Source of the DNA: Xanthobacter autotrophicus Py2
GTDB lineage: Bacteria; Pseudomonadota; Alphaproteobacteria; Rhizobiales; Xanthobacteraceae
Assembly: GCA_000017645.1 (NCBI GenBank)
Contig: CP000781.1
Span: forward strand, 2,963,501-3,027,500
Length of the DNA: 64,000 bases
Reading direction: 5' to 3'
The notes under the pieces are model-generated. The model had not been told where the DNA came from and did no database searches. It saw only the letters and a program-made list of their open reading frames with translations. A program made the position numbers and the translations under genes. This document shows, one piece after another, positions 16,564-36,352 of the stretch (positions are counted from its first letter, which is position 1; every line of letters starts with the position of its first letter).

Positions 16564-17337
16564 TCAGCCTGCCGGTGGTGGAAAAGCATCGCCTGCATCG
16601 CCGAAGGCCTGCCATCCGCCATCGACCGAGAGCACGGTGCCGGTCACGTAGCGCGCCGCGGGAGACACGAGGAACGCCACCGCCTGCGCGATGTCGTCCG
16701 GCTGCGCCAGGAAGCCTAGCGGAATGCGACGGCGGATGCGACCGAGGTCGATCCTGCCGTCGCGCTCCAGGGCCTTCACGAGGGCGGTCTCCACATAGCC
16801 GGGCGCCACCGCGTTGACCCGGATGCCGGCGGGCCCAAACTCGCACGCCATGCTTCGCGTCAGGGCGACCACGCCCGCCTTGGCCGCCCCATAGGCATTG
16901 CGGCGGGGCAGGCCGGTGATGCCGGCGATGGAGCTGAGGTTGACGATTGAGCCGCTGCGCCGGGGCAGCATCACCCGCGCGGCCTCCCGCGAGACGAGGA
17001 ACACCCCGGTGAGGTCCACGTCGAGGATCTTGCGGAAGCGCGCCGCGTCCTGCTCCACCGTGGGCAGGTGGGTGTCGGCGATGCCGGCATTGTTCACCAC
17101 CGCGTCGAGACCGCCGAAGGCGGCCACCGCCCGCCGCATCGCCTCGGCCACGTCCTCCTCCACCGACACGTCGGCGCGGACCGCGAGATGGCCTGCGCCC
17201 AGTTCTGCGGCCCGCGCGGCGGCGGCGCCCTCGTCGAGATCGACCAGGGCGAGGCGCCAGCCCGTGGCCGCCAAGGTGCGTGCAATAGCCCAGCCGATAC
17301 CGTCGGCCGCGCCTGTGATCAATGCGGAAGGGCTCAT
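16564..17337 (-). CDS. Short-chain dehydrogenase/reductase
   Basis: A 257-residue classical SDR, NAD(P)-dependent. Cofactor motif TGAADGIG (residues 8-15), then NNAG, catalytic Ser in VNLSSIAG, and Tyr/Lys in YGAAK. Asp at the end of the second strand (ALVDLDEG) favours NAD(H). Last gene of operon A; its ATG overlaps the stop of the preceding SDR by 4 bases. Likely oxidises a ring alcohol of the cluster's substrate or a pathway intermediate; substrate unknown. Confidence 0.88.
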   Translation of the reverse strand: MSPSALITGAADGIGWAIARTLAATGWRLALVDLDEGAAAARAAELGAGHLAVRADVSVEEDVAEAMRRAVAAFGGLDAVVNNAGIADTHLPTVEQDAARFRKILDVDLTGVFLVSREAARVMLPRRSGSIVNLSSIAGITGLPRRNAYGAAKAGVVALTRSMACEFGPAGIRVNAVAPGYVETALVKALERDGRIDLGRIRRRIPLGFLAQPDDIAQAVAFLVSPAARYVTGTVLSVDGGWQAFGDAGDAFPPPAG

Positions 17338-18152
17338 GGCGCGGTCTCTCCGAAGCCGGGACGCGGCACGAGGCTCATCAGGGTCTGGGACAGGCCGCCG
17401 TCCACCACGATCTCCTGACCGTTGACATAGGACGCCCGCCCGCTCGCCAGGAACACGGCGACGTCGGCGATGTCCGAGGGCTGGCCGATGCGGCGCACCG
17501 GCACCATCGCTTCGCGTTTCTCGGCAATACCCGGTGCGGTGTAGAAGGGCTCGCTCAGGGGTGTGCGCACGAGGCCGGGGCTGACCACGTTGGAGCGCAC
17601 GCCGCGCGGCCCCCATTCGAAGGCGATCTGCCGCGACAGCATGGAGACCGCCGCCTTGCCCGGGCTGTAGGCGCCGCTGAACGGCTGGGGCTCGCTGGCG
17701 GCGATGGACGAGATGTGCACGATGGCGCCCGCGCCTTTCTCCAGCATGGCCGCACCAAAGGCGCGGGTGGTGAGGAAATAGCCGGTGAGGTTCACCTTCA
17801 GCATGTGCTCCCAGTCCGCCGTGGAGACCATGTCGATGCCGCCGGGCCGCAGGATGCCGGCATTGTTGACGAGGATGTCCGCCCCCCCGAATGCGGCCAG
17901 CGTTGCCGCCGCAGCCGAGGCGATGCTGGCCTCTTCGGAGATGTCGCATTGAAGCGCCAGCGCCCGCCCGCCCAGCTTCTCCACCTCGGTCTTGGTTTCG
18001 GCGCAGGTGTCCGGATTCCTGTCGGCAAGAGCAAGGTTCGCGCCGGCCTGCGCGAAGGCGAGCGCCACGGCGCGTCCGATGCCGCCGCCGGCACCGGTGA
18101 CGACGCATGTGAGGCCTCGAAGGCCGAGCCAGGCGGTGTCGGGCGCGCTCAT
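17334..18152 (-). CDS. Short-chain dehydrogenase/reductase (operon A copy)
   Basis: A 272-residue classical SDR with TGAGGGIG, NNAG, catalytic Ser in HISSIAA and YSPGK. It is strikingly similar to the operon B SDR at 23695-24498: both have SSGAY or FSGAY, FEWGPRGVRSNVVSPGLV or VEWGPRGVRSNVVSPGLV, PGI.EKREA and a PRPG ending. They are therefore duplicates serving related substrates. Asp after the second strand (LADRN) suggests NAD. It overlaps the NIPSNAP gene by 4 bases at its start and the next SDR by 4 bases at its end. Confidence 0.88.
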   Translation of the reverse strand: MSAPDTAWLGLRGLTCVVTGAGGGIGRAVALAFAQAGANLALADRNPDTCAETKTEVEKLGGRALALQCDISEEASIASAAAATLAAFGGADILVNNAGILRPGGIDMVSTADWEHMLKVNLTGYFLTTRAFGAAMLEKGAGAIVHISSIAASEPQPFSGAYSPGKAAVSMLSRQIAFEWGPRGVRSNVVSPGLVRTPLSEPFYTAPGIAEKREAMVPVRRIGQPSDIADVAVFLASGRASYVNGQEIVVDGGLSQTLMSLVPRPGFGETAP

Positions 18153-18505
18153 TGGGCCGCTCCTTCGTTGCCGAGGAAGCGGGCGACCGACGCGAGGTCG
18201 ATCTTCTTGATGAAGCGGTTCTCCTGCGCCACCAGCAGGTGGCCGGAGGCCGAAAGATAGGCCGGCCAGTCGGGATCGGCATCGCGCGCGATGCGGCGCC
18301 GGTCATAGTCGGCGAGGCTGTCATACCCCCACAGGTGCACAACCTGGTTCTGCGGGCCGATGTCGCCGGCGAAAAAAGCGATGGGCGGCCCGAGGTGTCG
18401 CAATTGCACCGGCATGGCGAGGGTGTCGAAGATCTCGATGAACTCGCCGAGGCCGCGGGGCTTGATGGTGTAGATGCGCAAGTCCGCGATACGGTATCCG
18501 GTCAT
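18149..18505 (-). CDS. NIPSNAP-family protein
   Basis: A 118-residue dimeric alpha+beta-barrel protein of the NIPSNAP type. Visible are IADLRIYTIKPRGLGEFIE, PQNQVVHLWGYDSLADYDRR and a C-terminal helix. ATG 18505 follows AAGGA. Single-domain NIPSNAP proteins occur in many catabolic clusters without an assigned activity; a role in binding or isomerising a cyclic intermediate is possible but unproven. A double-domain relative is in operon B at 25377. Confidence 0.8.
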   Translation of the reverse strand: MTGYRIADLRIYTIKPRGLGEFIEIFDTLAMPVQLRHLGPPIAFFAGDIGPQNQVVHLWGYDSLADYDRRRIARDADPDWPAYLSASGHLLVAQENRFIKKIDLASVARFLGNEGAAQ

Positions 18506-18528
18506 GACAATCCTTGATGAGTTTTGCA

Positions 18529-18553
18529 CCCCGGAGCGGTTTCGGCTCCGGGG
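18529..18553 (-). terminator. Intercistronic hairpin after the operon A binding-protein gene
   Basis: CCCCGGAGC and GCTCCGGGG form a perfect 9-base stem around a 7-base loop, between the binding-protein stop (18588) and the NIPSNAP start. No U-run follows, so it is more likely an mRNA-stabilising or partially terminating hairpin that keeps the binding protein in excess. A similar hairpin follows the other binding-protein gene. Confidence 0.5.
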
Positions 18554-18587
18554 ATGCACGTCGCGGAGCCCAGGGGGCCGGGCGAAT

Positions 18588-19832
18588 TCAGGTCTTCACG
18601 AAGGGGCAGCCGCCTTCGGCGACAGGCCGGAAGGCCTCTTCGGCCGGGATGGTGGAGACGAGCTTGTAGATGTCGCCGGGGGCTTTGCTCTCGGCGGGAG
18701 CCTTCACCGAGAACAGATAGGCTGGGTGGATCTTGCGCCCGTCCTCACGCACGCGGCCGGGGCCGAAACAGTCGTCGTCCGTGGGCATCTGCTTCATGGC
18801 GGCGATGGTGTCTCGCCCGGATGCCTTGGCGCGGGCCACGCCCAGCGCCTTCACCGCCTTGAGATAATGGGTGACGCCGGAATAATCCCCGGCCTGGCTC
18901 ATGTTTGGAAACACGCCCGCCGGCAGCTTCGGAGCGATGCGCTTCATGAAGGCGCGGGTGCGGTCGTTGAGGTCCCAGTAGAAGGTTTCGGTGAGGGAGA
19001 GGCCGTGGGCCACCGGCAGGCCCATGGCGATCACGTCGGTGATGTATCCCACGGTGGCGGCGAGGCGGACCTTGCCGCCGGCGTCGAGGCCGAATTCCTG
19101 CGCCTGCTTCAGGCAGGTGATGAGCTCGGTGCCGGAATTGCAGAAGGCCACCACGTTGGCGCCGGAGGCCTGGGCCTGCAGCAGGAAGGAGGAGAAATCC
19201 GCGGTCGAGCCGTAGGGATATTTCACCGCGCCCGCCACCTTGCCGCCGGAGGCCTCTACGAAGCGGGTGGCATCCGCCTGGGCGGCATTGCCGAAGGCAT
19301 AGTCTGCGGTGACGAAGAACCACTTCGTGCCGCCGGTCTTCACCAGCGCCGTGGCGGTGGAATGGGCGAGGCACCAGCTGTCCCAGCTCCAGTGCAGGAG
19401 ATTGGGGCTGCAGCTCTTGCCGGTGAGATCGGAACTGCCCGCGGAGGTGACGATGGAGACCTTGTCGCGCTCCTGCAGGATGCCGCGCGAGCCCAGCGCG
19501 ATGGCGCTGTTGCCCACGTTGGTGATGACGTCGATGCCGTCCTCGTCGAACCATTTGCGGATGATGGTGAGGCCCACGTCCGGCTTGTTCTGGTGGTCCG
19601 CCACGACCAACTCGACCCGGATGCCCGGATTGGCGGCGGTGAACTCCTCAATGGCCTGCCGGGTGCAGGCGACGCTGGTCGGTCCTTCCACATCGCGATA
19701 GATGCCGGACATGTCGGTGATGTGGCCGATGCGGATGGTGTCGTCCGCGGCGCGCGCCCTCCCCGCCGGACCGAGCCCGAACGCGGTAACGGCAAGGCTT
19801 GTGCCGAGAAAGCTCCTGCGATCCATGGCCAT
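18588..19832 (-). CDS. ABC-transporter substrate-binding protein (leucine-binding type), orphan
   Basis: A 414-residue periplasmic binding protein of the branched-chain amino-acid (HAAT) class. The signal peptide has the twin-arginine-like MDRRSFLGTSLAVTAFGLGP and cleavage near ARA-AD. The mature part has IRIGHITDMSGIYRD, the usual ligand-loop start. No permease or ATPase adjoins it in operon A, so it may feed the LivH/LivMGF system of operon B or serve as a second specificity. The cargo is probably an aromatic or alicyclic acid by context. Confidence 0.88.
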   Translation of the reverse strand: MAMDRRSFLGTSLAVTAFGLGPAGRARAADDTIRIGHITDMSGIYRDVEGPTSVACTRQAIEEFTAANPGIRVELVVADHQNKPDVGLTIIRKWFDEDGIDVITNVGNSAIALGSRGILQERDKVSIVTSAGSSDLTGKSCSPNLLHWSWDSWCLAHSTATALVKTGGTKWFFVTADYAFGNAAQADATRFVEASGGKVAGAVKYPYGSTADFSSFLLQAQASGANVVAFCNSGTELITCLKQAQEFGLDAGGKVRLAATVGYITDVIAMGLPVAHGLSLTETFYWDLNDRTRAFMKRIAPKLPAGVFPNMSQAGDYSGVTHYLKAVKALGVARAKASGRDTIAAMKQMPTDDDCFGPGRVREDGRKIHPAYLFSVKAPAESKAPGDIYKLVSTIPAEEAFRPVAEGGCPFVKT

Positions 19833-19874
19833 GGCGTTTTTCCCTTATGGTTTATTGTCTTATCTTTGTTTTCG

Positions 19875-21587
19875 TCAGTGGGCGGAGACGCCGGCCAGGT
19901 GCCGCCCGGTGACATAGCCCGACGTCATGATGGGCCCGAGCGTGATGCCGGCGCCGGGATAGTTGCCGCCCATGATGCTCGCCGCATCGTTGCCCACGGC
20001 GTAGAGCCCGGCGATGGGGGCTGCGTTCGTGTCCAGCACCCGACCGAGCGGGTCGGTGGACAGCCCGTCGAAGGTACCGAGATCACCCATGAAGATCTTC
20101 ACCGCATAGAACGGCCCTTGATCGATGGGCGCCACCGTGGGGTTGGGCTTGTGGTCGGGGTCGCCGAGATAGCGGTTGAAGGCGGTGGAGCCGCGGTGGA
20201 ATGCCGGGTCCTCGCCCTTTACGGCGCCCACATTGTAGGTGCGCACTGTCTCTTCCAGGCCGGCGGCATCAATGCCGGCCGCGCGGGCGAGGTCGGCCAG
20301 CGTGCGACCCTTCAGCAGATAGCCGGAGCGGGTATAGAGCGAGGTCGGCACCGGAGCGGGCTTGGCAAAGCCGAGGCCGTACTTGCGGAGGGTGGCATGG
20401 TCGCAGACCAGCCAGGCGACGGTCTCGCCCTCCCCCTCGCTGTCGGCGATCATGGCGGCGCCCACGTCGTGGTAGGAATTGGCCTCGTTGGTGAAGCGGC
20501 GGCCGTGCCGGTTCACCGCGATGACGCCGGGCTTGTAGCGGTCCACGAGGTGGGGGAATACACCGAAGCGTCCGTTGCCGAGGGGCACTTTCGACACCGG
20601 CATCCAGGCCGCCGCATCGGGAAAGCGCGCCTCGAACTGCCCACCCACGGTTTCCGCGAGGCGGATGCCATCGCCGGTATTGCCCTCAGGGGTGGGGGAG
20701 ACATGGGCGCCGCCACGCCGGCGGTGGGGATAGATGCCCGCAAGGCGCGCCTCGTCGTGGGGGAAGCCGCCACAGGCCAGCACCACCCCCCGTCGCGCGG
20801 TGATGCGCTGGGTGCCGGAGGCGTCCTTCACGACGGCGCCGGTCACCGCGCCATCCTTGACGATCAGCTTTTCGGCGGCTGTGCCGGTGCGGATCGCAAT
20901 GCCGCAGTCGAAGGCCGATTTGGCGAGGCGGGCCGCCAGAGCGTTGCCGCTCGTGACCTGGACCCCGCGCCGGTACAAAAGAAGGTCCTTCAGGTGATTG
21001 GCAAGGCGCTTCGCCACATAGAGCGCGGAGGTCAGCGAGCGCGTGGCGTTGAAGAAATGCTTCAGTTCATTGTTGGATGAATTGAACATCATGCCGATGA
21101 AGGTGATGGTCGCGAGCGGCGGCTTGAGCCGGTTCATCTCGCCTCCAAGGCCGCGCGCATCATAGGGCGCGGCGACGACGGAGCGGCCGATATCCACGCC
21201 GCCCGGCAGATCCGGATGGTAGTCGGGATAGGCGGAGGCGACGAACTTCACCTCGGTCTCGCGCTCGAAGAAGTCGAGCATGCGCGGGCCGTTGTCGAGA
21301 AAGTACTCGATCGCGTCCTCGCGGTAGAAGTTGCCGGTCTCGGTCTTCAGGTAGAGCCGGGCGGCGTCTCGCGTGTCGGTGATGCCCTGCGCCGCAGCAT
21401 GGGGATTTCCAGGGATCCACAGCACGCCGCCCGAAAAGGCGGTGGTGCCGCCGAAATGCTCCTCCTTCTCCACCACGACGACGTCGAGGCCGTGCTTCCT
21501 CGCGGTGACCGCCGTGGACAGGCCGCCGGCTCCGGACCCGATGACCAGCACGTCGCACACGAGAGGGGCGTGTTCGCTCAAAGACAT
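19875..21587 (-). CDS. KstD-like FAD-dependent ring dehydrogenase (operon A)
   Basis: A 570-residue flavoprotein of the fumarate-reductase/3-ketosteroid-dehydrogenase superfamily. FAD motif GSGAGG at residues 17-22, then EKEEHFGGTTAFSGGVLWIP. The C-terminal GLYAVGNDAASIMGG and NYPGAGITLGP (Tyr about 543) correspond to the KstD flavin loop and its catalytic Tyr. Family members remove hydrogens next to a ring ketone; 4-oxocyclohexanecarboxylate desaturases belong here. No signal peptide. ATG 21587 follows GAGGAG. First gene of operon A, divergent from the AraC gene. Two paralogues lie in operon B. Aromatisation of a keto-cyclohexane acid is inferred. Confidence 0.87.
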   Translation of the reverse strand: MSLSEHAPLVCDVLVIGSGAGGLSTAVTARKHGLDVVVVEKEEHFGGTTAFSGGVLWIPGNPHAAAQGITDTRDAARLYLKTETGNFYREDAIEYFLDNGPRMLDFFERETEVKFVASAYPDYHPDLPGGVDIGRSVVAAPYDARGLGGEMNRLKPPLATITFIGMMFNSSNNELKHFFNATRSLTSALYVAKRLANHLKDLLLYRRGVQVTSGNALAARLAKSAFDCGIAIRTGTAAEKLIVKDGAVTGAVVKDASGTQRITARRGVVLACGGFPHDEARLAGIYPHRRRGGAHVSPTPEGNTGDGIRLAETVGGQFEARFPDAAAWMPVSKVPLGNGRFGVFPHLVDRYKPGVIAVNRHGRRFTNEANSYHDVGAAMIADSEGEGETVAWLVCDHATLRKYGLGFAKPAPVPTSLYTRSGYLLKGRTLADLARAAGIDAAGLEETVRTYNVGAVKGEDPAFHRGSTAFNRYLGDPDHKPNPTVAPIDQGPFYAVKIFMGDLGTFDGLSTDPLGRVLDTNAAPIAGLYAVGNDAASIMGGNYPGAGITLGPIMTSGYVTGRHLAGVSAH

Positions 21588-21751
21588 GAAAAGGCTCCTC
21601 CTCGACACGCGCCGGGCGTGTGAAGTCCGCGCTTCCTGTGCGCAAAAGACGTTGTGTGATCGCATGGCACCGCGGTGCCGACGCACTGGCGTCGCTCACT
21701 CCGCGGCTGGCTTGACCAGCTCTTCGACGGCTCGTTGTTGTCCCATGGATA

Positions 21752-21841: not shown

Positions 21842-22735
21842 ATGCTGCACTTGCGAATGACACGGCAAAATGTGATCCCGAGCTTCTTTCTTTACGACGA
21901 AGCCTTGGCAGATGTGGATCTCGACTTCCTCCATGTGGAAGCCATCCGGATCCGCTCAAGCGTGCATGATTGGACGATCCGTCCACATGCCCATCCCGAG
22001 CACGTCCAGTTCCTGTTCGTGACCGAGGGCGGTGGGCGGATCCGCGTGGAGGATGACGAGTGGCAGCTTGATCCGCCCACGGTGGTGGTCATCCCCCCGA
22101 CGGCGGTCCACGAAATCCGCTTTGAACCGGGCTCGGACGGCTTCGCGCTTACGATCGCCGCCTCCTACGTGACGGCGATGGCGCAGACGGATCCCGCATT
22201 TGCCGATGTACCCGCCGCCGGCCTCTATCCGGCCCAGGGGCCCGATGGCGACGGATACGGCCTGCTGGATGCCTTCCAGTGGCTGGAACGGGAATTCATC
22301 GGCGCGGCGCCGGGGCGGAGAGCGGCCATCGGCGCACACTTTCTGCGGGTGCTGGTCGCGCTGGCCCGGCTGAAGGATGGCGGTGCGCCGGCGGGAGGGC
22401 CGCTGATGCGCCGCGATGCCGATATCGTGGTGCGCTATCGCCGGCTCATCGAGGAGCATTTCCGGCAGGCACAGCCGCTCACCTTTTATGCCGACGGGCT
22501 CAACATCACCTATGCCCGCCTCAACGCCGCCTGCCGGGCAGTGGCGGGCAAGAGCGCGCTGAAGCTCATGCACGACCGCCTGATGATCGAAGCCAAGCGC
22601 AACCTGCTCTACACGAGCATGAGCGTCGGCGAGGTGGGCCACGCCCTTGGCTTTCAGGATCCGGCTTATTTCTCCCGCTTCTTCACCCGCCATGCCGGGC
22701 GCTCACCGGCAGCGTTCCGCGCCGCACCGCGATAG
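21842..22735 (+). CDS. AraC-family regulator of operon A, PobR paralogue
   Basis: A 297-residue AraC protein with a cupin-like sensor half (RPHAHPEHVQFLFVTEGGG) and C-terminal double HTH ending in VGEVGHALGFQDPAYFSRFF. Sensor spacing and the DPAYF.RFFTRH.G.SP signature match the PobR-like protein at 8770, so both probably sense small carboxylated ring compounds. It is divergent from operon A, which it presumably activates. Its 3' end is 11 bases from the convergent end of operon B. Confidence 0.85.
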   Translation: MLHLRMTRQNVIPSFFLYDEALADVDLDFLHVEAIRIRSSVHDWTIRPHAHPEHVQFLFVTEGGGRIRVEDDEWQLDPPTVVVIPPTAVHEIRFEPGSDGFALTIAASYVTAMAQTDPAFADVPAAGLYPAQGPDGDGYGLLDAFQWLEREFIGAAPGRRAAIGAHFLRVLVALARLKDGGAPAGGPLMRRDADIVVRYRRLIEEHFRQAQPLTFYADGLNITYARLNAACRAVAGKSALKLMHDRLMIEAKRNLLYTSMSVGEVGHALGFQDPAYFSRFFTRHAGRSPAAFRAAPR

Positions 22736-22746
22736 GACGCAGGCGC

Positions 22747-23655
22747 TCACGCCCGCGCGGCGGCCCGCCCCCGGTAATAGGCGATGGTGGCGGCGATGCC
22801 GGTGTCGAGGGACGTTTCCGGCAAGTCCGGCAACACGGAGGAAAGGTGATCCGGCGCCAGCTCCCCGGCGATGGGCATGGGAGCGCCGGTGGCGGTGATG
22901 CGCGCATCGGGCACCTCACGCCGGATGGCGGCGATCACCGCATCGACGGTCGCGGGGCGTCCGGCCAGATTGAAGGCGTGCGCGCCTGGCAGCGGGGCAA
23001 ACAGAGCCTGCTCGAAGGCCACCGCCACGTCGTCCACATAGATCATGCCGGTTGAGCCCACATAGGGGATCACATAGGGCGCGCCCTGCGCGGCGGCGCG
23101 GCAGGCAAGCGTCGGCCCGGCGCTGGCGCCTTCCTCGCCGCGGCCCGGCCCGTAGACGATGAAGGGCCGGAAGCCGATGCTGGCGATGCGATGGTCTTCC
23201 CAATACGCCCGGGCGCTGCCTTCGCAGGCGAGCTTGAAGGCGCCGTAGTGGGTGGTGGGGCAGGGGATGTGTCCGTCCCGCGGCCCGAACACGCCCGCCG
23301 AACTCGCATAGACGACGCGCGGCATGCCCTCGCGCCGGGCGGCCTCGAAGGCGTTGAGCGTGCCGATGAGGTTGATCTGGGCGCCCTTCACCGGATCCGA
23401 CCGGCAGGCGGGCGTGAGGATGCCGGCCATGTGCACGATCCCGCCGCAGCCCCGCGCGGCCGCATGCACGGCGTCTGTGTCGCGGATATCGGCCAACCGC
23501 CAATCCACCTCGCGTGCGAGGTCGCCCAGGATGTCGCGCACGGCGGCGCTGTCGCTGGCGATGTCGAGGACGCGCACGGCGACGCTGCGCCGGAGCAGGC
23601 GGCGGATGATCCAGGCGGCGATGAATCCGGTGCCGCCGGTGACGAGGACCTTCAT
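22747..23655 (-). CDS. NAD-dependent epimerase/dehydratase (extended SDR)
   Basis: A 302-residue extended SDR with TGGTGFIAAW at the N-terminus (TGxxGxxG), Asp in VLDIASD favouring NAD, catalytic Ser in VYASSAG and Tyr/Lys in HYGAFK. Such proteins act on nucleotide sugars or on cyclic or aryl alcohols. In this cluster an alcohol dehydrogenase or dehydratase role on a ring intermediate is plausible. It follows the SDR by 39 bases and is the last gene of operon B. Confidence 0.85.
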   Translation of the reverse strand: MKVLVTGGTGFIAAWIIRRLLRRSVAVRVLDIASDSAAVRDILGDLAREVDWRLADIRDTDAVHAAARGCGGIVHMAGILTPACRSDPVKGAQINLIGTLNAFEAARREGMPRVVYASSAGVFGPRDGHIPCPTTHYGAFKLACEGSARAYWEDHRIASIGFRPFIVYGPGRGEEGASAGPTLACRAAAQGAPYVIPYVGSTGMIYVDDVAVAFEQALFAPLPGAHAFNLAGRPATVDAVIAAIRREVPDARITATGAPMPIAGELAPDHLSSVLPDLPETSLDTGIAATIAYYRGRAAARA

Positions 23656-27777: not shown

Positions 27778-29495
27778 GGCCGCTGCTCCCCGGCTTGGCA
27801 GGCATGGCGCACGGCGCGATAGGCGAAGGTGATGGCCGGGCCGATGGTGATGCCCGGGCCGGGATAGGTCCCGCCCATGATGGACTGGGCCTCGTTGCCG
27901 CAGGCATAGAGGCCGGGAACCGGGCTGCCGTCCTCCTTCAGCACCCGCGCCCATTCGTCGATGACGAGGCCGGTGGCTGCACCGATGTCGCCGGGATAGA
28001 GCCGCACGGCGTAGAAGGGCGCGGTATCGATCGGGCCGAGGGTGGGATTGGGACCGTGCGCCGCATCGCCGTTGATCCGGTGATAGGCGGTGGTGCCGCG
28101 ACCGAACTGCGTATCGACACCGGTCTTGGCAAAGGTGTTCATGGCGCCGACTGTTTCTTCCAATACGGCGGCATCCATGTTCAGCTTCGCAGCGAGGGCG
28201 GCGATGGTGGGCGCTTCCACCAGATAGCCGTCGTCGAGGAACGGCTTCAGGTTGCGCGTGCCCATGCGCACCATGCCGAGGCCAAATCTCTTCAGGCCCA
28301 CCGCATCGGTGATGATGAAGCAGGGGATGGTCGGCCGATCCCGGTTCGCCGCGAACATGGCCTTGCCGAACTGGTGATAGGAGGTGGATTCGTTCACGAA
28401 GCGCCGCCCGGTCTGGTCCACGCACACGGTGCCTGGCTTGGAGCGGTCCATCACGAAATGGGGGAAGACCGCGGTGGAACCGTCGGCGCGGCGGCGCACC
28501 GAGACCGGCGCCCAGAAGGCCGGCTGGTCGCCCCCCGTGCCGAAGCGGGCGCCGAGCTTCAGGGCGAGGTCCTGCATGGCGCCGGTATGCCCGGGCGCGG
28601 CCGGGCTGTAGGCGGGTGTCGGCTTGGGCAGAAGCTCGGCACGGCGGGTGGGGTGGCGGTTGAAGCCGCCCGCCGCGATCACGAGGCCACGACGGACGCG
28701 GATCTGCCGCTCCGCGCCGTTCTGCGCCACGGTGACGCCTTCCACGCCGCCCCGCCCCGCGTCGACGGCGCGGACGGTGGCCTCCAGCAGGATCGGGACG
28801 TTGCGCGCCTTCAGGGATGCGAGCATGCGCCCGATCAGGGCGTTTCCCATCACCAGCCGGCTGCCGCGCCGCTGCGCCAGCCGGTCGCGGCCGTACCAGG
28901 CGAGGATCGAGGCGGCATGCCGGAAGGAGCGCCACGACTTCGTCAGTCCCAGCAGGTGCCCGATGTCGGTGCGGTCGATCATCATGCCGCCGAAGATGGT
29001 GAATTCCGGGATCGGCGGCCGGATGCGCGCGAGGTCTGCGCCGAGGCTGCGACCGTCGAAGGGCACCGGCTCCAGCGCCCGCCCGCGCAGGGTGGCGCCC
29101 TCATGGTCCTGCTCGTAGTCGGGATGGGTGGCGTAGGGGCGAAAGCGCACCTGCGACTGGTCTTCGAGGGTGGCGATGGCCTGCGGCCCGCTCTCCAGGA
29201 AGGCGCGCCGCAGCACCGCCGGGGAACGGTTGCCCACCACGCCATCCAGGAAGTGCTCGGCCTTATCGAGACTGTCATCCACCGCCACCTCGGAGGAGTG
29301 CCGGTTCATGGGGATCCAGGTGGTGGCAGCGGACAAGGCGGTGGTGCCGCCGACATATTCGGTGCGCTCCACCAGCAGCACCTTCAGGCCGGCGATGGCG
29401 GCGAACAGCGCCGTCGCCATTCCGCCGGCTCCGGAGCCGACGACGACGAGGTCATGGACATCGTCTGGGGGGAGGGCATCCAGGGTGGTGATCAT
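27774..29495 (-). CDS. KstD-like FAD-dependent ring dehydrogenase (operon B, first)
   Basis: A 573-residue flavoprotein with GSGAGGMATAL, ERTEYVGGTTALSAATTWIP, GLYACGNEAQSIMGG and TYPGPGITIGP, the last identical in layout to 3-ketosteroid dehydrogenases. It begins 9 bases after the AroE-like gene and overlaps the next flavoprotein by 4 bases. SAATTW replaces the SGG.(L/M)W of the other two copies, so its active-site entrance probably differs. The substrate is inferred to be a keto- or hydroxy-cyclohexane acid. Confidence 0.87.
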   Translation of the reverse strand: MITTLDALPPDDVHDLVVVGSGAGGMATALFAAIAGLKVLLVERTEYVGGTTALSAATTWIPMNRHSSEVAVDDSLDKAEHFLDGVVGNRSPAVLRRAFLESGPQAIATLEDQSQVRFRPYATHPDYEQDHEGATLRGRALEPVPFDGRSLGADLARIRPPIPEFTIFGGMMIDRTDIGHLLGLTKSWRSFRHAASILAWYGRDRLAQRRGSRLVMGNALIGRMLASLKARNVPILLEATVRAVDAGRGGVEGVTVAQNGAERQIRVRRGLVIAAGGFNRHPTRRAELLPKPTPAYSPAAPGHTGAMQDLALKLGARFGTGGDQPAFWAPVSVRRRADGSTAVFPHFVMDRSKPGTVCVDQTGRRFVNESTSYHQFGKAMFAANRDRPTIPCFIITDAVGLKRFGLGMVRMGTRNLKPFLDDGYLVEAPTIAALAAKLNMDAAVLEETVGAMNTFAKTGVDTQFGRGTTAYHRINGDAAHGPNPTLGPIDTAPFYAVRLYPGDIGAATGLVIDEWARVLKEDGSPVPGLYACGNEAQSIMGGTYPGPGITIGPAITFAYRAVRHACQAGEQRP

Positions 29496-29504: not shown

Positions 29505-30311
29505 TCAAGCGTTGGAGTCGGTGTGCAGCAGGAAGTCCACCATCTTCTCCTGCAGGGCGAAGTACATCTCGGTGCCGGTGGAGGTGGGGCAGCCGGCGGC
29601 GCGGGCGGCGGCGATCAGCGGCGACACCGCCGGCTGGGTGATGACGCAGCCCACATGGGTCGCGGGCACGAGCCTCGTCACATCCACGGGCAGCGGATCG
29701 CCCTCCTTCATGCCCATGGGCGTGGCGTTGGCGACGAGGTCGAAGCCAGCGGGATCGGTGGAACCCGCCACCGCCCGGCCCTTGCCGAGGGTGTTGAGGC
29801 GGGCGACGAGGGCATCGCGCCGCGCCACATCGGCGTCATGGATGGCGAGCTCGGCAACGCCCGCATCGATCAGGGCGAGAGCGATGGCGGAACCCGCGCC
29901 GCCCGCCCCAACCAGCAGCGCCCGCTTGCCGTCAGGATCGAAGCCCGCATTGACCGCGGCGCTGACGAAGCCGAGGCCGTCCACGATGTCGCCATACCAA
30001 CCGCCTTCGGGTCGCTGGCGCATGATGTTCACCGAGCCGATGAAGGCGGCGCGGTCGGAGGCTTCGGCGCAGTGGGAGAAGCAGCCGAACTTGTGGGGCA
30101 CGGTGACGACGACGCCGCCGAGATTTTTCAGCTTGCCCGAGACGGCAAGCAGGTCGCCGAGATCCCCGGTTCCCACCTGCACCGGCACAAGGATGCCGTC
30201 ATGATTGCGGGAGAGAAAAGCTGCCGTCATGCCGGCGGGGGATTTCACCTGGGCGATCGGATCGCCGACGATGATGTAGAGGCGGGTGGCGCCGGACAGG
30301 TCGATGTTCAT
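29505..30311 (-). CDS. Shikimate/quinate dehydrogenase-like protein (AroE family), divergent
   Basis: A 268-residue AroE-family NAD(P) oxidoreductase. The catalytic Lys is kept in VTVPHK (residue 74), as is the catalytic Asp (residue 111) in GDIVDGLGF. The nucleotide motif is GAGGAG at 135-140. Differences from biosynthetic AroE are clear: the usual SLSP carboxylate-binding pair is VKSP (first Ser lost), NTDG is IVDG, and AVNT is SVNI. These changes and the catabolic operon point to a shikimate-like but different hydroxylated ring acid. It lies 26 bases after the transporter fusion; ATG 30311 follows GGAG. Housekeeping AroE is unlikely. Confidence 0.85.
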   Translation of the reverse strand: MNIDLSGATRLYIIVGDPIAQVKSPAGMTAAFLSRNHDGILVPVQVGTGDLGDLLAVSGKLKNLGGVVVTVPHKFGCFSHCAEASDRAAFIGSVNIMRQRPEGGWYGDIVDGLGFVSAAVNAGFDPDGKRALLVGAGGAGSAIALALIDAGVAELAIHDADVARRDALVARLNTLGKGRAVAGSTDPAGFDLVANATPMGMKEGDPLPVDVTRLVPATHVGCVITQPAVSPLIAAARAAGCPTSTGTEMYFALQEKMVDFLLHTDSNA

Positions 30312-30337: not shown

Positions 30338-32866
30338 TCAGCTGGCCGCGGCGATGAGGTCTTCGCCCTGCACCACGCCCAGGAGGCGGGCCTGCAGGGC
30401 GTGATCGGCTTCGAGCCGCCCGGCGTCGCCGGCGAAGGCCACCTGCCCGTTCACCAGGACATAGGCGCGGTCGACGATGGGCAGGACGGTTTCGGTGTGG
30501 TGCTCGACGATCACCATGGCCACCTTGCCGCGCAGCTTCACGAGGGCTTCCATGACCTCGTTGACCACCGCGGGCGCGAGGCCCTCGAACGGCTCGTCGA
30601 GCAGGATGAGCCTGGACGGCATCACCAGGGCGCGGGCAATGGCCACCATCTGGCGCTCGCCGCCGGAGAGGTTCTCCGCCCGCGCCGCCTGGCGGGTCTT
30701 GAGCCGGGGGAACAGCTCGAACACCTCGTCCAGGCTGATGCCGCCGGGCCGGGCCGCCAGTTGCAGGTTCTCCACCACCGTCAGGTTGGGGAACAGGCGG
30801 CGGCCCTCCGGCACCAGGGAGATGCCGCGGCGGTTGATCTCGTAGGGGCGCAGGCCGGTCAGCGCCTCGCCCTTCAGCTTAAGCTCGCCGGCGGCGAGGG
30901 GCAGGCTGCCGGTGAGGGCACGCAGGGTCGTGGTCTTGCCCACGCCGTTGCGGCCAAGCAGCGCCACCGCCTCGCCCTCGTGCACCACGAGATCGATGCC
31001 GGCGAGGACGCTGGAGCCGTTGTAGCCGGCAACCATGCCCCTGGCTTCGAGGAGGATCGGGGCGGCGGCATGGGCTTGGCGCTCCACCGCCGGAGGGGCG
31101 GCGCGCTCGCCGTCCTTGGCTGCGCCGAGATAGGCGGCGATCACCTCCGGATGGGCGGCCACCTCCAGCGGCGGCCCGTCGGCGACGATACGGCCCTGGT
31201 GCAGCACCGAGATGCGATCGGAGATGGCAAGGACGCGGTCGATGTCGTGCTCGATGAGCAGCACCGCATGGCTGCGCGACAATCGCTTGATGAGATCGGC
31301 CACCACCACGCGGTCCGCCTCGGCGAGACCGGCCAGCGGTTCGTCCAGGAGCAGCAGCTTGGAGTCGATGGAAAGCGTCACGGCGATCTCCAGCAGGCGC
31401 TTGGCGCCGTGAGGCAGATCGGCGCTGCGCGCGGCCGCCTTGTCGGCGAGGCCCACGGCGTCGAGCAGCGACCAGGCCCGGGCGTTGATCGCATCCAGGC
31501 TATGGGCGTCCACGAACAGGCCCCGCGCCCCGCGACGCTGCGCCTGCACCGCGACGCGCACGTTCTCGAACACGGTCAGGTGGGGGAAGATGGACAGGAT
31601 CTGGAACGAGCGGCCCATGCCGAGCCTGGCCCGGGCGTGAAGCGGCAGGTGGGTGACGTCCGCTCCCTCGAACAGGACCTGTCCGGCTGTTGGCGGCAGC
31701 ACGCCCGTGAGCATGTTGAAGAAGGTGGTCTTGCCGGCGCCGTTCGGCCCGATGATGGTGTGCAGCGTGTTGGGATAGACGGTAAAATCGATGCTCCTGG
31801 CCGTGACGAGACTGCCGAAGCTCTTGTTCAGCCCCCGCGTTTCGAGGATCGGTTTGCGCGGATCGAGCGCCTGCAATGCGCTGGAATACGGCACGATAAG
31901 CCCGGGGCGCGGTGGGATGGTGTTGCGTGTCAGGGTCCAGCGCTCGCAGCGGAACAGCCGCTGGACGAGGCCCTGGATGCCTTCCGGAGAGACCAGCGCG
32001 AAGGCGATGAGCAGCGGAGCAAAGATCAGCCACCAGTTTTCGGTGATGGCGGAGAGGCGGTTTTCAAGCACGATGAAGGTGATGGCGCCCCACAGCGGGC
32101 CGAGGAAGTGGTGCACGCCGCCGAGCACCGTCATCAGCAGGCTGTCGCCGGCATGCTGCCAGCCGAGATTGTTGGCATAGACGCCCTGCAGCAGGAAGGT
32201 GAGCAGCGCGCCGGCATAGCCGACCACGACTGCGCACAGGGTGAAGCCCACGAGCCGCACGCGGTAGACGTCATAGCCGAGGCTCGCCGCCCGCACGTCG
32301 TTGTCACGCACCGCCTGGAGCACGCGCCCGAACGGCGCGTGGGCGAGGCGCCACAGCAGCCACATCACCCCGACCACGGTCGCCACCACGAAGACATGGA
32401 AGGTCAACGGGCTCTCCATGAGCGGTCGCGGGACGCCCTGGATGCCGTTCTCGCCGCCGGTGACGGAGGTCCATTTGAAGGCGATCTCGAACGCGATCTG
32501 CGAGCAGGCGAGCGTCAGCAGGGAAAAATAGAGCCCCTTGCGCCTCAGGATGACAGCGCCGATGCCAAGGCCCAACACGGCGGCGAACACCATCGACAGG
32601 CCCAGCGCGCCGATCTCGTTGCCGCCGAGCCCAAGGATGAAGTAGGCCGCAGCATAGCTTGTACAGCCGAAGAAGACCGATGCGCCGAAGGGCACGAGGC
32701 CGGTGTAGCCGATCAGCAGGTTCACCCCGGCGCCGTAGAGCGCGTAGATGGCGATCTGGGTGACGAGCTGGATCGGGGCGCCGAGGGCGAGCCACAGCGC
32801 GCTGAGCGCGCCCAGCACCACGGCGGTCCACAGGACGGGATGGAGGAGTACGGCGCGGAGGGTCAT
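30338..32866 (-). CDS. LivM-LivG-LivF triple fusion: ABC permease plus two ATPases
   Basis: An 842-residue protein joining three usually separate subunits. Residues 1-305 are a LivM-type permease with about 8-9 spans (YALYGAGVNLLIGYTGLVPF, GGVHHFLGPLWGA). Residues about 340-585 are a LivG-type ATPase with Walker A GPNGAGKT (373-380), a degenerate signature LPHGAKR (484-490) and Walker B LLLLDEP. Residues about 603-842 are a LivF-type ATPase with GRNGVGKT (638-645), the canonical LSGGERQ and LILLDEP. Separate genes are the rule in HAAT transporters. It overlaps LivH by 4 bases. It energises uptake of the cluster's acid substrate, by inference. Confidence 0.92.
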   Translation of the reverse strand: MTLRAVLLHPVLWTAVVLGALSALWLALGAPIQLVTQIAIYALYGAGVNLLIGYTGLVPFGASVFFGCTSYAAAYFILGLGGNEIGALGLSMVFAAVLGLGIGAVILRRKGLYFSLLTLACSQIAFEIAFKWTSVTGGENGIQGVPRPLMESPLTFHVFVVATVVGVMWLLWRLAHAPFGRVLQAVRDNDVRAASLGYDVYRVRLVGFTLCAVVVGYAGALLTFLLQGVYANNLGWQHAGDSLLMTVLGGVHHFLGPLWGAITFIVLENRLSAITENWWLIFAPLLIAFALVSPEGIQGLVQRLFRCERWTLTRNTIPPRPGLIVPYSSALQALDPRKPILETRGLNKSFGSLVTARSIDFTVYPNTLHTIIGPNGAGKTTFFNMLTGVLPPTAGQVLFEGADVTHLPLHARARLGMGRSFQILSIFPHLTVFENVRVAVQAQRRGARGLFVDAHSLDAINARAWSLLDAVGLADKAAARSADLPHGAKRLLEIAVTLSIDSKLLLLDEPLAGLAEADRVVVADLIKRLSRSHAVLLIEHDIDRVLAISDRISVLHQGRIVADGPPLEVAAHPEVIAAYLGAAKDGERAAPPAVERQAHAAAPILLEARGMVAGYNGSSVLAGIDLVVHEGEAVALLGRNGVGKTTTLRALTGSLPLAAGELKLKGEALTGLRPYEINRRGISLVPEGRRLFPNLTVVENLQLAARPGGISLDEVFELFPRLKTRQAARAENLSGGERQMVAIARALVMPSRLILLDEPFEGLAPAVVNEVMEALVKLRGKVAMVIVEHHTETVLPIVDRAYVLVNGQVAFAGDAGRLEADHALQARLLGVVQGEDLIAAAS

Positions 32867-33732
32867 TCGAAGCGCTCCCACTTCTCGCCGAAGAGGCCGC
32901 GGGGGCGCGCGATGAGGACGACGGCCATGAGCACGTACATCGCGACGCCGGACCAATCGGGATAGAATTGAACTGTCAGGGCGGTGACGAGGCCCACCAT
33001 GAGGCCGGCGACGATGGCGCCGCGGTAGGATCCGAGGCCGCCGATGGTGACGATGACGAAGGCCGGCATGATCGCCGCCGCGCCGATGGCGGGGCTTACC
33101 GTCCAGAGCGGGCCGGCCAGCATGCCGGCAAGGCCGGCGAGCAGGCAGCCGATGCCGAACACGCCTGAAAGCACGATGGGCAGGTTTATGCCGAGCAGGC
33201 CCACCATCTCGGGATCACGCGAGCCCGCTCGGATGATGCGGCCGAACGGCGTGAAGGCAAGGAACGCCCAGAACGCGACCAGCGCTGCGATGGTCACGCA
33301 CAAAACCGCCACGCGGTAGGTGGTGATCAGGATCGCACCCCATTCCACGAAGCCGGCCAGCGGCCTCGGCGGGCTGAAGGGCTGGGGTGCGCCGCCGAAG
33401 ACGAGGCGGAGCACCGCTTCCACCAGCAGGGCCAGCGCGAAGGTGAGGATCAGGCTGATGAGCGGCTCCTTGTCATAGAGCCGCCGGATCAGAACCATCT
33501 CCACGACCATGCCGATGAGGCCGGTGAGCAGCGGCGCCAGCAGCGCCGCGCCCCATCCGAACTGTTGCGTCAGCACCAGGGCGAGATAGGCGCCGATGGC
33601 GAAGAAGGCGCCGTGCGCAAAGTTCACGATGCCCAGCATGCCGAAGATGATCGACAGGCCGACAGCAATCAGAACGTAGAGAAATCCTAGTACCAGGCCA
33701 TTTACCGCCTGCGATAAGATCATGTCGAGCAT
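32863..33732 (-). CDS. LivH-type ABC permease
   Basis: A 289-residue inner-membrane permease of the branched-chain amino-acid class, with NGLVLGFLYVLIAVGLSIIF and GMLGIVNFAHGAFFAIGAY at the N-terminus and TIGGLGSYRGAIVAGL near the C-terminus. It pairs with the LivM domain of the fusion. ATG 33732 is preferred over 33738 because GAGGAC then lies 8 bases upstream. It is separated from its binding-protein gene by about 93 bases containing a strong hairpin. Confidence 0.9.
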   Translation of the reverse strand: MLDMILSQAVNGLVLGFLYVLIAVGLSIIFGMLGIVNFAHGAFFAIGAYLALVLTQQFGWGAALLAPLLTGLIGMVVEMVLIRRLYDKEPLISLILTFALALLVEAVLRLVFGGAPQPFSPPRPLAGFVEWGAILITTYRVAVLCVTIAALVAFWAFLAFTPFGRIIRAGSRDPEMVGLLGINLPIVLSGVFGIGCLLAGLAGMLAGPLWTVSPAIGAAAIMPAFVIVTIGGLGSYRGAIVAGLMVGLVTALTVQFYPDWSGVAMYVLMAVVLIARPRGLFGEKWERFE

Positions 33733-33769
33733 TACCATGTCCTCGTGGGGGCAGCCGCGCGCGACCGGT

Positions 33770-33791
33770 CGCGGTCCCGCGTGGGACCGCG
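33770..33791 (-). terminator. Intercistronic hairpin after the operon B binding-protein gene
   Basis: CGCGGTCCC and GGGACCGCG form a perfect 9-base stem with a GCGT loop, 35 bases downstream of the binding-protein stop and upstream of LivH. No U-tract follows. Like the hairpin at 18529 it probably protects or partly terminates the message so that binding protein exceeds membrane components. Confidence 0.5.
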
Positions 33792-33825
33792 TCCAGGACT
33801 CCGCGCGCCGCGAAGCAGCGGATGC

Positions 33826-35079
33826 TCAGATGCTTTCCATCTTGCAGGCCGAGGCGCTCTCGGGGCCGTAGAGGGCGTTCGCCTCGGCCTCGGTCTTCGG
33901 CACCTCCGCCTTGACGTCGAAGAAGTCCCACTTGTCGGTAATCTTCGGCTTCACGCCGAGCACGACCACGGTGCTCGTCAACTGGTGGTCGAAGGGCCGG
34001 AAGGAGATCTCGCGCGTCCCGCCGCGCTTGGTCTGCCAGCGCTCGATTGCGTTGACGACCGCCGTCGGGTCCGTGGAGCCGGCGGCCTCGATGGAATCAA
34101 GAAGGATGTTGGTGCCGAACCATCCCATCCAGGCCTTGTCGGCTGGAGGGCGATTGTATTTCTTCTCGTATGCCGCCGTCATGGCCTGTTCATCTGGCGG
34201 ATTGGCGGGGTTCTTGTAGTACCAGGTGCTGGTGTAGAGACCGTCGGCGGCCTCGGGTCCCACGCCCCACAGGTCGGTGTTGCCTACCGCAATTTCCGCG
34301 AACGGGATGCGACCACGCATGCCCAGTTCGTTCCATTGCTTCAGGAAGCCCATGAGGTCGCTGCCGGCGATGCCGCCGATGACGACGTCGGGCTTGGCGG
34401 CGCGAATCTTCAGAATGAAGGAGGAGAAGTCCTGCGTGCCCACGGGCACGTCATCGGCACCCACGATGGTGCCGCCGTTGTCCTTGGCGTACTGGCCGAA
34501 GAAGCGCTTGACGTCCTGGCCGAAGGCATAGGCGGCTGTCAGCAGGTACCATTTCTTGCCGATGGCGGCGGCCTGGGGGGCCAGCACCCGGGCCTGCACC
34601 TCCACCGGGGCCTGGGTGCGGAAAGTGTAGCGATTGCAGGACGCTCCGGTCAGGGCGTCGGCCGCGGCATTGGTCGCTATGAAGGGCACCTTTGCCTTCT
34701 TGGCCACCGCCGAGATGGCGAAGGCGTGGGACGAGAGCGCCCCGCCGACAAGGCCGGCCACCTTGTGCTCGCCGACCAGGCGCTCGGCATTCTGCTGGGC
34801 GCCCTGTGGATTGGGTTCATCCAGCCAGACAATCTCCGTCGGCCGCCCGAGCAGGGTGCCGCCGCGTTGTTCCAGCGCAAGGAAGCTGCCCTGGGCGAGA
34901 TGCTCGGACTGGCCGACGATGGGGCCGGTCTTGCCGTAGAGCATGCCAATGCGGATCGGCTCGGCTGCATGGGCGCGGCTGACCCACGGCATGGCGATGG
35001 CGCCGGCGGTCGCGCCGAGCAGCAGGTTGCGTCGATTGATGGCGAATGCGCCGGAGCGCGGACTCGTTTCGTCGCCCAT
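33826..35079 (-). CDS. ABC-transporter substrate-binding protein (leucine-binding type), operon B
   Basis: A 417-residue periplasmic binding protein. The Tat-type signal has NRRNLLLGATAGAIAMP, with cleavage after AHA. The mature part begins EPIRIGMLYGKTGPIVGQS and includes VGGALSSHAFAISAVAKKAK, typical of the amide/aromatic-acid branch of the family. ATG 35079 follows GGGAGGACAGG. First gene of operon B, next to its LivH/LivMGF partners and divergent from the IclR regulator. Cargo unknown. Confidence 0.9.
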   Translation of the reverse strand: MGDETSPRSGAFAINRRNLLLGATAGAIAMPWVSRAHAAEPIRIGMLYGKTGPIVGQSEHLAQGSFLALEQRGGTLLGRPTEIVWLDEPNPQGAQQNAERLVGEHKVAGLVGGALSSHAFAISAVAKKAKVPFIATNAAADALTGASCNRYTFRTQAPVEVQARVLAPQAAAIGKKWYLLTAAYAFGQDVKRFFGQYAKDNGGTIVGADDVPVGTQDFSSFILKIRAAKPDVVIGGIAGSDLMGFLKQWNELGMRGRIPFAEIAVGNTDLWGVGPEAADGLYTSTWYYKNPANPPDEQAMTAAYEKKYNRPPADKAWMGWFGTNILLDSIEAAGSTDPTAVVNAIERWQTKRGGTREISFRPFDHQLTSTVVVLGVKPKITDKWDFFDVKAEVPKTEAEANALYGPESASACKMESI

Positions 35080-35191
35080 CCTGTCCTCCCTGGACACGGT
35101 TTTCCCGGAATGCCCGCTTTGCGGATTTTTTGGTGGTGGCCCGAATGCTCGCGATGGAGCGTTCGTCGGACGGCTCATTCGGTAGCATGAC

Positions 35192-35231
35192 TGGAATCGG
35201 ATTCCAATTTTATTTTTGGAACTGGATTCCA
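35192..35231. promoter_or_regulatory. Tandem IclR-type operators
   Basis: Two 15-base palindromes, TGGAATCGGATTCCA (35192-35206) and TGGAACTGGATTCCA (35217-35231), centred 25 bases apart. Both fit the TGGAA-N5-TTCCA layout known for E. coli IclR sites (TGGAAATNATTTCCA). They sit between the divergent binding-protein and IclR genes, 113 and 129 bases from the starts, as expected for control of operon B and autoregulation. Confidence 0.72.
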
Positions 35232-35359
35232 GTTTTATTGACCGCAGTCCCGGTCCCGTGAAAGGCTATGCCGTCTGCCGGTGCCCGGCCGCTGCGCGCG
35301 GAAGGGGCAAGTGCGCCGGTTGCAGTCGATCAGCGCCAGACCTATCAGTGGAGGCAGCA

Positions 35360-36352
35360 ATGCCCGGTGCAATGGCCCCTTCTGCCAAGACGTCGCTGCC
35401 CTCTGAAGTGGGTGCGGATCCCATCAAAGGCGGCCGGCAGCTCACCGTGCGGAATGGACAGCGTGACGAAGCCATGGACAAGAAACTCCCGCAAACCCCA
35501 GTCGAGAGCGACGCCGAGGCCAGCCCGAGCGGCCTTCTGGAACGGACCCTTGCGGTGCTGGAGTTGCTGGCGGTCCATGCCCACGGCCTGCCGCTCTACG
35601 AGGTGGCCGACCATCTCCGCATTCCGCGCAGCGCCACTCACCGCATCCTCAACAGCCTCGTGGAGCATGGATACGTGCGCCAGGAGCGTCAGCTCGGGGC
35701 CTATCTGCTCACGGCCAAGCTGACCTCCCTGGCCTTCACTTTCCTTGCCGCCAGCGGCATCACCGACTTCGCCCAGCCCATTCTCGACCGCCTCGCTCAC
35801 CAATCCGGGGAGCTGGTGCGCCTCGCGATGATCGATGGCCGTGAGCTGATCTGGGTGGCGAAATCCCAGGGCTCGCCCTTCGGGCTGCGCTATGACCCGG
35901 ACATGGGGCAGGTGGGTCGCCTGTCCTGTTCGGCCTCCGGGCACGCCTGGCTATCGTGCCTGCCGGAAGAGGAGGCGATCGCTCTGGTGGAGACACAGGG
36001 CTATGGCGCGCGCCGCGACTTCGGTCCGCGGGCGCCGGAAACCCGGACCGCGCTGTTGAAATATCTGCGCGTCGCCCGCAAGCGGGGCTTTGCCGTGACC
36101 GTGCAGACCTATACGCCGTGGATGAATGCCTGCGCCGCCCCAGTGCGCAGCATCGCCACCGGCGAAGTGACCGGAACGGTGGTGATCGCAGGGCCTAATG
36201 TGCGTCTCACCGAGGCGCGTATGCTGGAGCTCGGGTCGCTGCTGATGGAAGCGGCGCGCGAGCTGTCCATGGCAGTGAGCGCCTCCCCCGGCCTTTCCGC
36301 CCGGCGCGAGAGTGACCGATCGAGCTTCTTTGCGGGACCGGGCGAAGCCTGA
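35360..36352 (+). CDS. IclR-family transcriptional regulator
   Basis: A 330-residue IclR regulator. The winged HTH is around LLERTLAVLELLAVHAHGLP and HLRIPRSATHRILNSL. The C-terminal effector domain includes SGELVRLAMIDGRELIWVAK, a Cys region (LSCSASGHAWLSCLP) and NACAAPVRS. ATG 35360 is chosen because GGAGGCAGCA precedes it; an ATG at 35474 also leaves a full protein. It is divergent from operon B with two IclR-type palindromes between. The effector is probably the imported acid or its aromatic product. Confidence 0.9.
   Translation: MPGAMAPSAKTSLPSEVGADPIKGGRQLTVRNGQRDEAMDKKLPQTPVESDAEASPSGLLERTLAVLELLAVHAHGLPLYEVADHLRIPRSATHRILNSLVEHGYVRQERQLGAYLLTAKLTSLAFTFLAASGITDFAQPILDRLAHQSGELVRLAMIDGRELIWVAKSQGSPFGLRYDPDMGQVGRLSCSASGHAWLSCLPEEEAIALVETQGYGARRDFGPRAPETRTALLKYLRVARKRGFAVTVQTYTPWMNACAAPVRSIATGEVTGTVVIAGPNVRLTEARMLELGSLLMEAARELSMAVSASPGLSARRESDRSSFFAGPGEA

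Follow-up and report, generated by a model that had tools for sequence, protein, structure and literature searches.

Which pathway is encoded by two operons that lie directly to the right of the pobA/pca genes for 4-hydroxybenzoate and protocatechuate in Xanthobacter autotrophicus Py2? We examined the window that holds them, a stretch of 64,000 nucleotides (contig CP000781.1, positions 2,963,501 to 3,027,500) from a genome of 5.6 Mb in two contigs. Gene calling and Pfam and NCBIfam scans, on which our gene list is based, located every component that a first-pass annotation had described: three FAD_binding_2 flavoproteins, three classical short-chain dehydrogenases/reductases (SDRs), one extended SDR, an AroE-like protein, a PF01261 TIM barrel, two NIPSNAP proteins and an ATP-binding cassette (ABC) importer, which comes with two binding proteins, SBP1 and SBP2. 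Five of the enzymes (FAD2, FAD3, NIP2, TIM and AroEl) form a core that we found at 24 loci in Alpha-, Beta- and Gammaproteobacteria. We consider it rather probable that the two operons act as one module in the catabolism of a cyclohexane carboxylate related to quinate and shikimate, one that is hydroxylated and at least partly saturated, such as dihydroshikimate or 3,4-dihydroxycyclohexanecarboxylate, and that they feed protocatechuate or 4-hydroxybenzoate. Both operons are on the minus strand. Operon 1 reads FAD1-SBP1-NIP1-SDR2-SDR1, with an AraC gene divergent ahead of it, and operon 2 reads SBP2-permease-fused permease/ATPases-AroEl-FAD3-FAD2-NIP2-TIM-SDR3-extSDR, with an IclR gene divergent ahead. 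Gaps between operon neighbours are below 100 bp in both, and several genes overlap.

16564..17337, minus: SDR1, classical SDR, operon 1 (family scans; start at 17337)
17334..18152, minus: SDR2, classical SDR, operon 1, companion of FAD1 (family scans, synteny)
18149..18505, minus: NIP1, single-domain NIPSNAP protein (family scan)
18588..19832, minus: SBP1, branched-chain-type ABC binding protein (family scan)
19875..21560, minus: FAD1, KstD-like flavoprotein (FAD_binding_2), operon 1 (family scans, alignment, synteny)
21872..22735, plus: AraC regulator, divergent from FAD1 and kept beside it in other loci (family scans)
22747..23655, minus: extSDR, extended SDR (family scan)
23695..24498, minus: SDR3, classical SDR (family scan)
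24532..25365, minus: TIM, PF01261 barrel with a QuiC-like metal site, core (family scan, alignment; start at 25365)
25377..25988, minus: NIP2, two-domain NIPSNAP protein, core (family scan, fold comparison)
25978..27777, minus: FAD2, KstD-like flavoprotein (FAD_binding_2) of the PRK06134 type, core (family scans, alignment)
27774..29495, minus: FAD3, KstD-like flavoprotein (FAD_binding_2) of the PRK12843 type, core (family scans, PDB alignments)
29505..30311, minus: AroEl, oxidoreductase of the shikimate dehydrogenase family, core (family scans, alignment)
30338..32866, minus: ABC importer, fused permease-ATPase-ATPase (ATPase parts pass the UrtD and UrtE models)
32863..33732, minus: ABC importer permease, LivH/UrtB-like (family scans)
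33826..35079, minus: SBP2, ABC binding protein (UrtA 82.8 bits, cut-off 492.75)
35408..36352, plus: IclR regulator, divergent from operon 2 (family scans)

To define the core, loci were found by searches with NIP2, their surroundings were fetched and genes were marked by tblastn (L and G numbers below are our handles for loci and genomes). FAD2, NIP2, TIM and AroEl are each present in 24/24 loci and FAD3 in 23/24; it was absent by tblastn from the Paracoccus locus L050. Gene order varies, being FAD2-NIP2-AroEl-TIM-FAD3 in Acidocella, and in Marinomonas, Nitrincola and Limimaricola the core is split into two divergent halves around the IclR gene. An IclR gene was called in 19 of the 24 loci and extSDR in 8, and a further gene group is shared by 10, its examined members being Gfo/Idh/MocA enzymes (two scanned, three so annotated). 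Transporters at the module differ. Xanthobacter, Acidocella, Paraburkholderia, Rhizobium and others have a branched-chain-type ABC transporter, and Diaphorobacter and G491 a major facilitator superfamily (MFS) transporter; the Limimaricola transporter is annotated as of the tripartite tricarboxylate type, and five further loci, those of both Marinomonas among them, have genes homologous to it. Two Xanthobacter records hold the same cluster as the window as far as their contigs reach, with 86-99% identity per protein. For SDR3 of X. oligotrophicus 29k, tblastn recovered only the last 36 residues (L034:11454-11636), and SDR3 seems dispensable in that strain. Since several classes of Pseudomonadota share the core, the grouping of these genes in the window is more than chance. 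That five enzymes are inherited together through rearrangement is strong evidence that they serve one pathway. In searches of the open-licence literature we recognised no description of this module.

Many NIP2-like matches have no module around them. In a sample of the phylum, 12 of 398 genomes gave a NIP2 match at E<=1e-25, some of them without the module. The module was present in 11 of the 17 loci of the first set (not in L042, L043 or L046-L049), in 2/11 of L056-L066, where two more hold FAD2 and NIP2 only and seven none of it, and in 9/16 of L069-L084. Six of 35 plasmid records were viewed, five with the module and L055 without it. Long flanks were fetched for G182 and G044 but not for most other class hits, and G373, G389, G586, G684 and G817, from further searches, were likewise left out. 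The set of 24 omits L033, a near-copy of the window, L073, from the same genome as L035, and L076, from the same genus as L075.

Operon 1 is part of the module. Five lineages have FAD1, SDR2, sometimes SDR1 as well, and the AraC gene next to the core: those of the window, Paracoccus (L050), G477 (L056, L087), G609 (L085) and G574 (L086). Among 297 genomes of the order, with at most four candidates scored per genome, the only ones with a protein more than 60% identical to FAD1 are the window genome (G000), G609 and G574, and in each the module is no more than about 6 kb away. FAD1, FAD2 and FAD3 fall into separate clades of the tree, the FAD1 clade holding just two sequences, and the names listed among the best 120 FAD1 relatives are FAD-dependent oxidoreductase, 3-oxosteroid 1-dehydrogenase and succinate dehydrogenase/fumarate reductase flavoprotein.

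The residues of the core enzymes are compatible with desaturases that act next to a ketone, with an alcohol dehydrogenase and with a metal-dependent enzyme that dehydrates or isomerises. All 31 aligned flavoprotein sequences keep the equivalents of KstD Tyr318, Tyr487 and Gly491, and the position of Tyr119 is Tyr in FAD1 and FAD3 and Phe in FAD2 (KstD numbering, with the register taken from FAD3 alignments to PDB entries). The module flavoproteins thus share sequence family and the catalytic Tyr/Tyr/Gly with KstD (PDB 4c3x, 7p18). They differ in belonging to the PRK06134 and PRK12843 subfamilies instead of the KstD models and in the Phe of FAD2, and no steroid-specific genes were recognised among the scanned genes, where steroid or terpenoid degradation is unsupported. 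In AroEl, K74, D111 and N95 are the equivalents of the active-site residues Lys65, Asp102 and Asn86 of shikimate dehydrogenase and are invariant in 15/15 sequences. The first carboxylate-binding Ser (Ser14) is replaced by Val22 in all 15, and the second is nearly invariant. AroEl falls under the AroE cut-offs (115.9 vs 200.2 bits for TIGR00507; 116.6 vs 252 for NF001319). Its closest solved relative is PDB 4k28 (170 bits with the single sequence, 248 with a profile), a shikimate dehydrogenase family protein whose entry name gives no function and which we take to be from Pseudomonas putida, with NAD+; its second phmmer match is a 5-ketofructose reductase.

TIM is a single-domain protein scoring 34 bits against the two-domain NCBIfam QuiC model (cut-off 1200). 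Of the ten active-site residues that PMC7442255 names for the 3-dehydroshikimate dehydratases QsuB and QuiC1, TIM keeps six (E134, D164, H167, Q190, R213 and E239), assuming the same numbering in both enzymes. It has M136 for Leu136, A209 for Ser206 and no equivalent of Arg64 in the alignment, and the tenth residue, Leu97, has no certain counterpart; on cut-off and residues together we reject its membership of QuiC. Fold matches of TIM include IolI and sugar epimerases, and Lmo2234 (PDB 2g0w), at about 20% identity, is of unproven function. Foldseek matches of NIP2, to the anthrone oxidase-like 5f9p, PenE (9kdp) and NIPSNAP entries, are at 10-34% identity and concern the fold only.

The Chc pathway converts cyclohexanecarboxylate via 4-oxocyclohexanecarboxylate to 4-hydroxybenzoate. 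Like the module, it has an alcohol dehydrogenase and KstD-like ring desaturases that aromatise a ring acid, and the first-pass annotation had linked the two. At the family level this link is unsupported. Against ChcC2 (cut-off 900), FAD1, FAD2 and FAD3 score 595, 502 and 436 bits; against ChcC1 (cut-off 1000) they score 364, 326 and 299. SDR1, scanned 11 residues short at its N-terminus, SDR2 and SDR3 reach 221, 178 and 165 bits for ChcB2 (cut-off 350), and SDR1 reaches 168 for ChcB1 (cut-off 400), for which SDR2 and SDR3 were not among the best 25 matches listed (models NF053676, NF053677, NF053701 and NF053702). On these cut-offs we reject membership of the Chc families. A proteobacterial version of the pathway would oxidise 4-hydroxycyclohexanecarboxylate to the 4-ketone with an SDR and desaturate it twice to 4-hydroxybenzoate, the substrate of PobA. 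An SDR and two KstD-like desaturases balance exactly for this substrate, and ChcC2 is the best-scoring model of FAD1 among those named for a function. However, every listed Chc score is below its cut-off, and AroEl, TIM and NIP2, present in all 24 loci, have no known role in the Chc pathway; with the ABC importer, they are what the module adds to it. We regard this version as quite unlikely, even with pobA near the module in several genera (below).

The neighbouring pobA/pca block, also noted in the first-pass annotation, is genuine. PobA, PcaH, PcaG, PcaC and PcaQ exceed their model cut-offs, PcaB exceeds one of two, and PcaK falls below:

8770..9645, minus: pobR-like AraC-type regulator, probably of pobA, from which it diverges (HpaA-type AraC model 147.6 bits, below the cut-off of 274.65)
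9924..11084, plus: pobA, 4-hydroxybenzoate 3-monooxygenase (TIGR02360 660 bits, cut-off 538.7)
11119..12180, minus: pcaB (NF004631 511.6 bits, over the cut-off of 371; TIGR02426 354.7 vs 355.75, about 1 bit under)
12266..13177, minus: pcaQ regulator (TIGR02424, over cut-off)
13395..15083, plus: pcaC, pcaH and pcaG (TIGR02425, TIGR02422 and TIGR02423, all above cut-off)
15140..16507, plus: pcaK-like MFS transporter for aromatic acids (NF053517 481.8 bits, below the cut-off of 770)

Transposase remnants flank the pob/pca and module region at 36757-37179 and 2240-2668 (DUF4096; DDE_Tnp_1). At 37439-40345 lies a large protein (up to 968 aa) with, by eye, a lipoprotein-like signal and repeated domains, and no Pfam match. 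The gene at 30338-32866 encodes a single LivM-LivG-LivF-type fusion of 842 aa in place of three ABC genes, and similar long fusions occur in the module loci L036, L038, L040, L051, L053 and L069.

Genomes with the module are enriched in QuiC-like genes. The searches for QuiC, pobA and pcaH exclude the plasmid loci L050-L054 and comprise 22 genome handles, or 21 distinct genomes, since G821 duplicates G683. A full-length QuiC-like gene (at least 600 bits) occurs in 16/21 module genomes, compared with 63/398 genomes of a phylum sample scored at a laxer threshold (Fisher 6e-9) and, by genus, in 11/14 compared with 42/213 (1e-5); the sample is unmatched for lifestyle or genome size, which tells against the contrast. 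The two-domain make-up of this protein (PF01261 and HPPD) was checked in the L075 copy only. In 4/14 genera it lies within about 20 kb of the module: about 4 kb in G780 (L075), about 5 kb from the ABC genes in Acidocella G826, about 4.5 kb in Marinomonas G825 (L039/L096) and about 16 kb in Nitrincola G827. In Marinobacterium the full-length match is about 34 kb away and single-domain relatives are about 10 kb away. In G780 a gene for a fosfomycin hydrolase of the FosX type (L075:4402-4854; over its NCBIfam cut-off) separates the QuiC-like gene from the module. Marinobacterium and Nitrincola have pairs of QuiC-like barrels and a Gfo/Idh/MocA-like gene near the module (L090:9466-11100, L088:8061-9680), these sets perhaps representing a further hydroaromatic sub-pathway. 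In 6/14 genera (Xanthobacter, Marinobacterium, Acidocella, Nitrincola, G477 and G609) the module has pobA within 20 kb, and in three of them, Xanthobacter, Marinobacterium and Acidocella, pcaH is no more than about 10 kb away. Of the two pobA genes in G609, one directly adjoins the module and the other lies elsewhere. Random placement would give probabilities of about 3e-5 for the QuiC-like proximity and about 2e-8 for that of pobA, rough values that ignore the general clustering of catabolic genes.

These links raise the question of whether the module is a variant of the quinate/shikimate route (QuiC/QsuB, AroQ and quinate/shikimate dehydrogenase), with AroEl as shikimate/quinate dehydrogenase, TIM as a single-domain 3-dehydroshikimate dehydratase, AroQ supplied from elsewhere in the genome and the flavoproteins serving side substrates. 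The two systems share an AroE-family dehydrogenase, a metal-dependent PF01261 barrel, pca genes nearby and, usually, a QuiC-like gene in the genome. But TIM would be redundant where a full-length QuiC-like gene exists, it lacks the QuiC residues Arg64 and Ser206, and FAD2 and FAD3, present in all and in all but one of the 24 loci, are hence not accessories; two or three flavin desaturases stand at the centre of the module. We find this variant unlikely. The first-pass annotation had contrasted the module with the quinate route. The contrast stands for the window, where no dehydroquinate dehydratase (AroQ) was found among the genes scanned, and for Xanthobacter, which has no QuiC; it is weakened because most other module genomes carry the full-length QuiC-like gene. 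The window genome holds two AroQ genes. One adjoins what looks like accB/accC. The other (C1:2861955) is followed by genes whose sequence starts read like a 2-hydroxyacid reductase, an HpaB/HpaC-like (4-hydroxyphenylacetate-hydroxylase-like) pair and an ABC transporter (L067:9943-16908), a putative catabolic island. A catabolic role for this second AroQ was rejected, with no quinate cluster recognisable among its neighbours.

Several observations weigh against a hydroaromatic acid as the substrate. The core enzymes all fall short of the Chc, QuiC and AroE cut-offs and of those of any curated family of known pathway role, and AroE-family and PF01261 proteins act on sugars too. None of the 22 module handles reaches the curated QuiC cut-off of 1200, compared with 10/398 sample genomes, and the window genome has no QuiC match at E<=1e-40. 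pobA over cut-off is absent from 7/22 handles and pcaH from 9/22; neither is present in G683 (=G821), G680, G780 or G819, and pcaH alone is missing in Nitrincola and both Marinomonas. In module genomes lacking these genes the product may thus go elsewhere. Genes of the pca, qui and pob groups often cluster, as in Acinetobacter, and the proximity of pobA to the module may merely reflect this. Since that clustering could explain it, and some module genomes lack pobA, we do not accept 4-hydroxybenzoate as the sole product. Outside the core, SDR1 (227 bits) and SDR2 (235) exceed the cut-off of 215 of a broad model that bears the name glucose 1-dehydrogenase. Likewise, the urea-transporter models UrtD and UrtE accept the fused ABC protein, while SBP2 fails UrtA. 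We take these as general models; they give no evidence for a ring acid.

Alternatively, the module might degrade another cyclic polyol or natural product (a fragment of a cyclitol, terpenoid or steroid) and end in something other than a C7 hydroxybenzoate, its proximity to pob, pca and qui genes being ordinary catabolic clustering. One member of the Gfo/Idh/MocA group, present in 10 of the loci, is IolG-like (117.6 bits, cut-off 355), and the IolI and epimerase matches of TIM and the module genomes without pobA and pcaH point the same way. However, the QuiC-like enrichment argues for a hydroaromatic acid, as does the fact that unrelated genera repeatedly have quiC-like, pobA and pca genes next to the module, and we hold the polyol alternative to be quite unlikely.

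In the route that we infer for a hydroaromatic acid, the ABC importer would take up the ring acid and AroEl would oxidise a ring alcohol to the ketone, aided by extSDR, the SDRs or, in other hosts, the Gfo/Idh/MocA enzyme. One or more KstD-type flavoproteins would then remove hydrogens next to the ketone, and the metal-dependent TIM could dehydrate a beta-hydroxyketone, as QuiC does, or shift the ketone, as IolI does. A reactive dienone or enol intermediate is probably handled by NIP2, and the aromatic product, protocatechuate or 4-hydroxybenzoate, would enter the pobA/pca pathway. IclR probably regulates operon 2 and AraC operon 1. The uptake, dehydrogenation and aromatisation of a hydroaromatic acid proposed in the first-pass annotation thus gain support from the quiC-like/pobA/pca synteny and the KstD-type and AroE-type catalytic residues.

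By our arithmetic, conversion of a saturated C7 ring acid to an aromatic one takes exactly three oxidation or dehydration events. AroEl, FAD2, FAD3 and a dehydrating TIM would provide four, a further point against the proposed route, and consequently a single simple C7 acid cannot pass once through all four. One solution is that TIM is an isomerase, so that AroEl, FAD2 and FAD3 could turn 3,4-dihydroxycyclohexanecarboxylate into protocatechuate. Another is that only one flavoprotein acts on each substrate, so that AroEl, one flavoprotein and TIM could turn dihydroshikimate into protocatechuate. The third is that the substrate is something other than a simple C7 acid. More tentatively, and with slightly less than even confidence, we suggest that Pseudomonadota have a second hydroaromatic route, not described so far, that runs alongside the quinate pathway or replaces it. 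In this route reduced cyclitol acids (dihydroshikimate, dihydroxycyclohexanecarboxylates) would be aromatised oxidatively by paired KstD-type flavoproteins together with three other proteins: an AroE paralogue specific to the module, a barrel resembling QuiC and IolI, and a tandem NIPSNAP enzyme whose catalytic role is putative.

The five core genes lend themselves well to testing. If the proposed route is correct, it would give a function to families publicly named FAD-dependent oxidoreductase, NIPSNAP family protein and sugar phosphate isomerase/epimerase, and a metabolic context to a bacterial NIPSNAP protein. It would also explain the use of reduced hydroaromatic acids by soil, plant-associated and marine bacteria.

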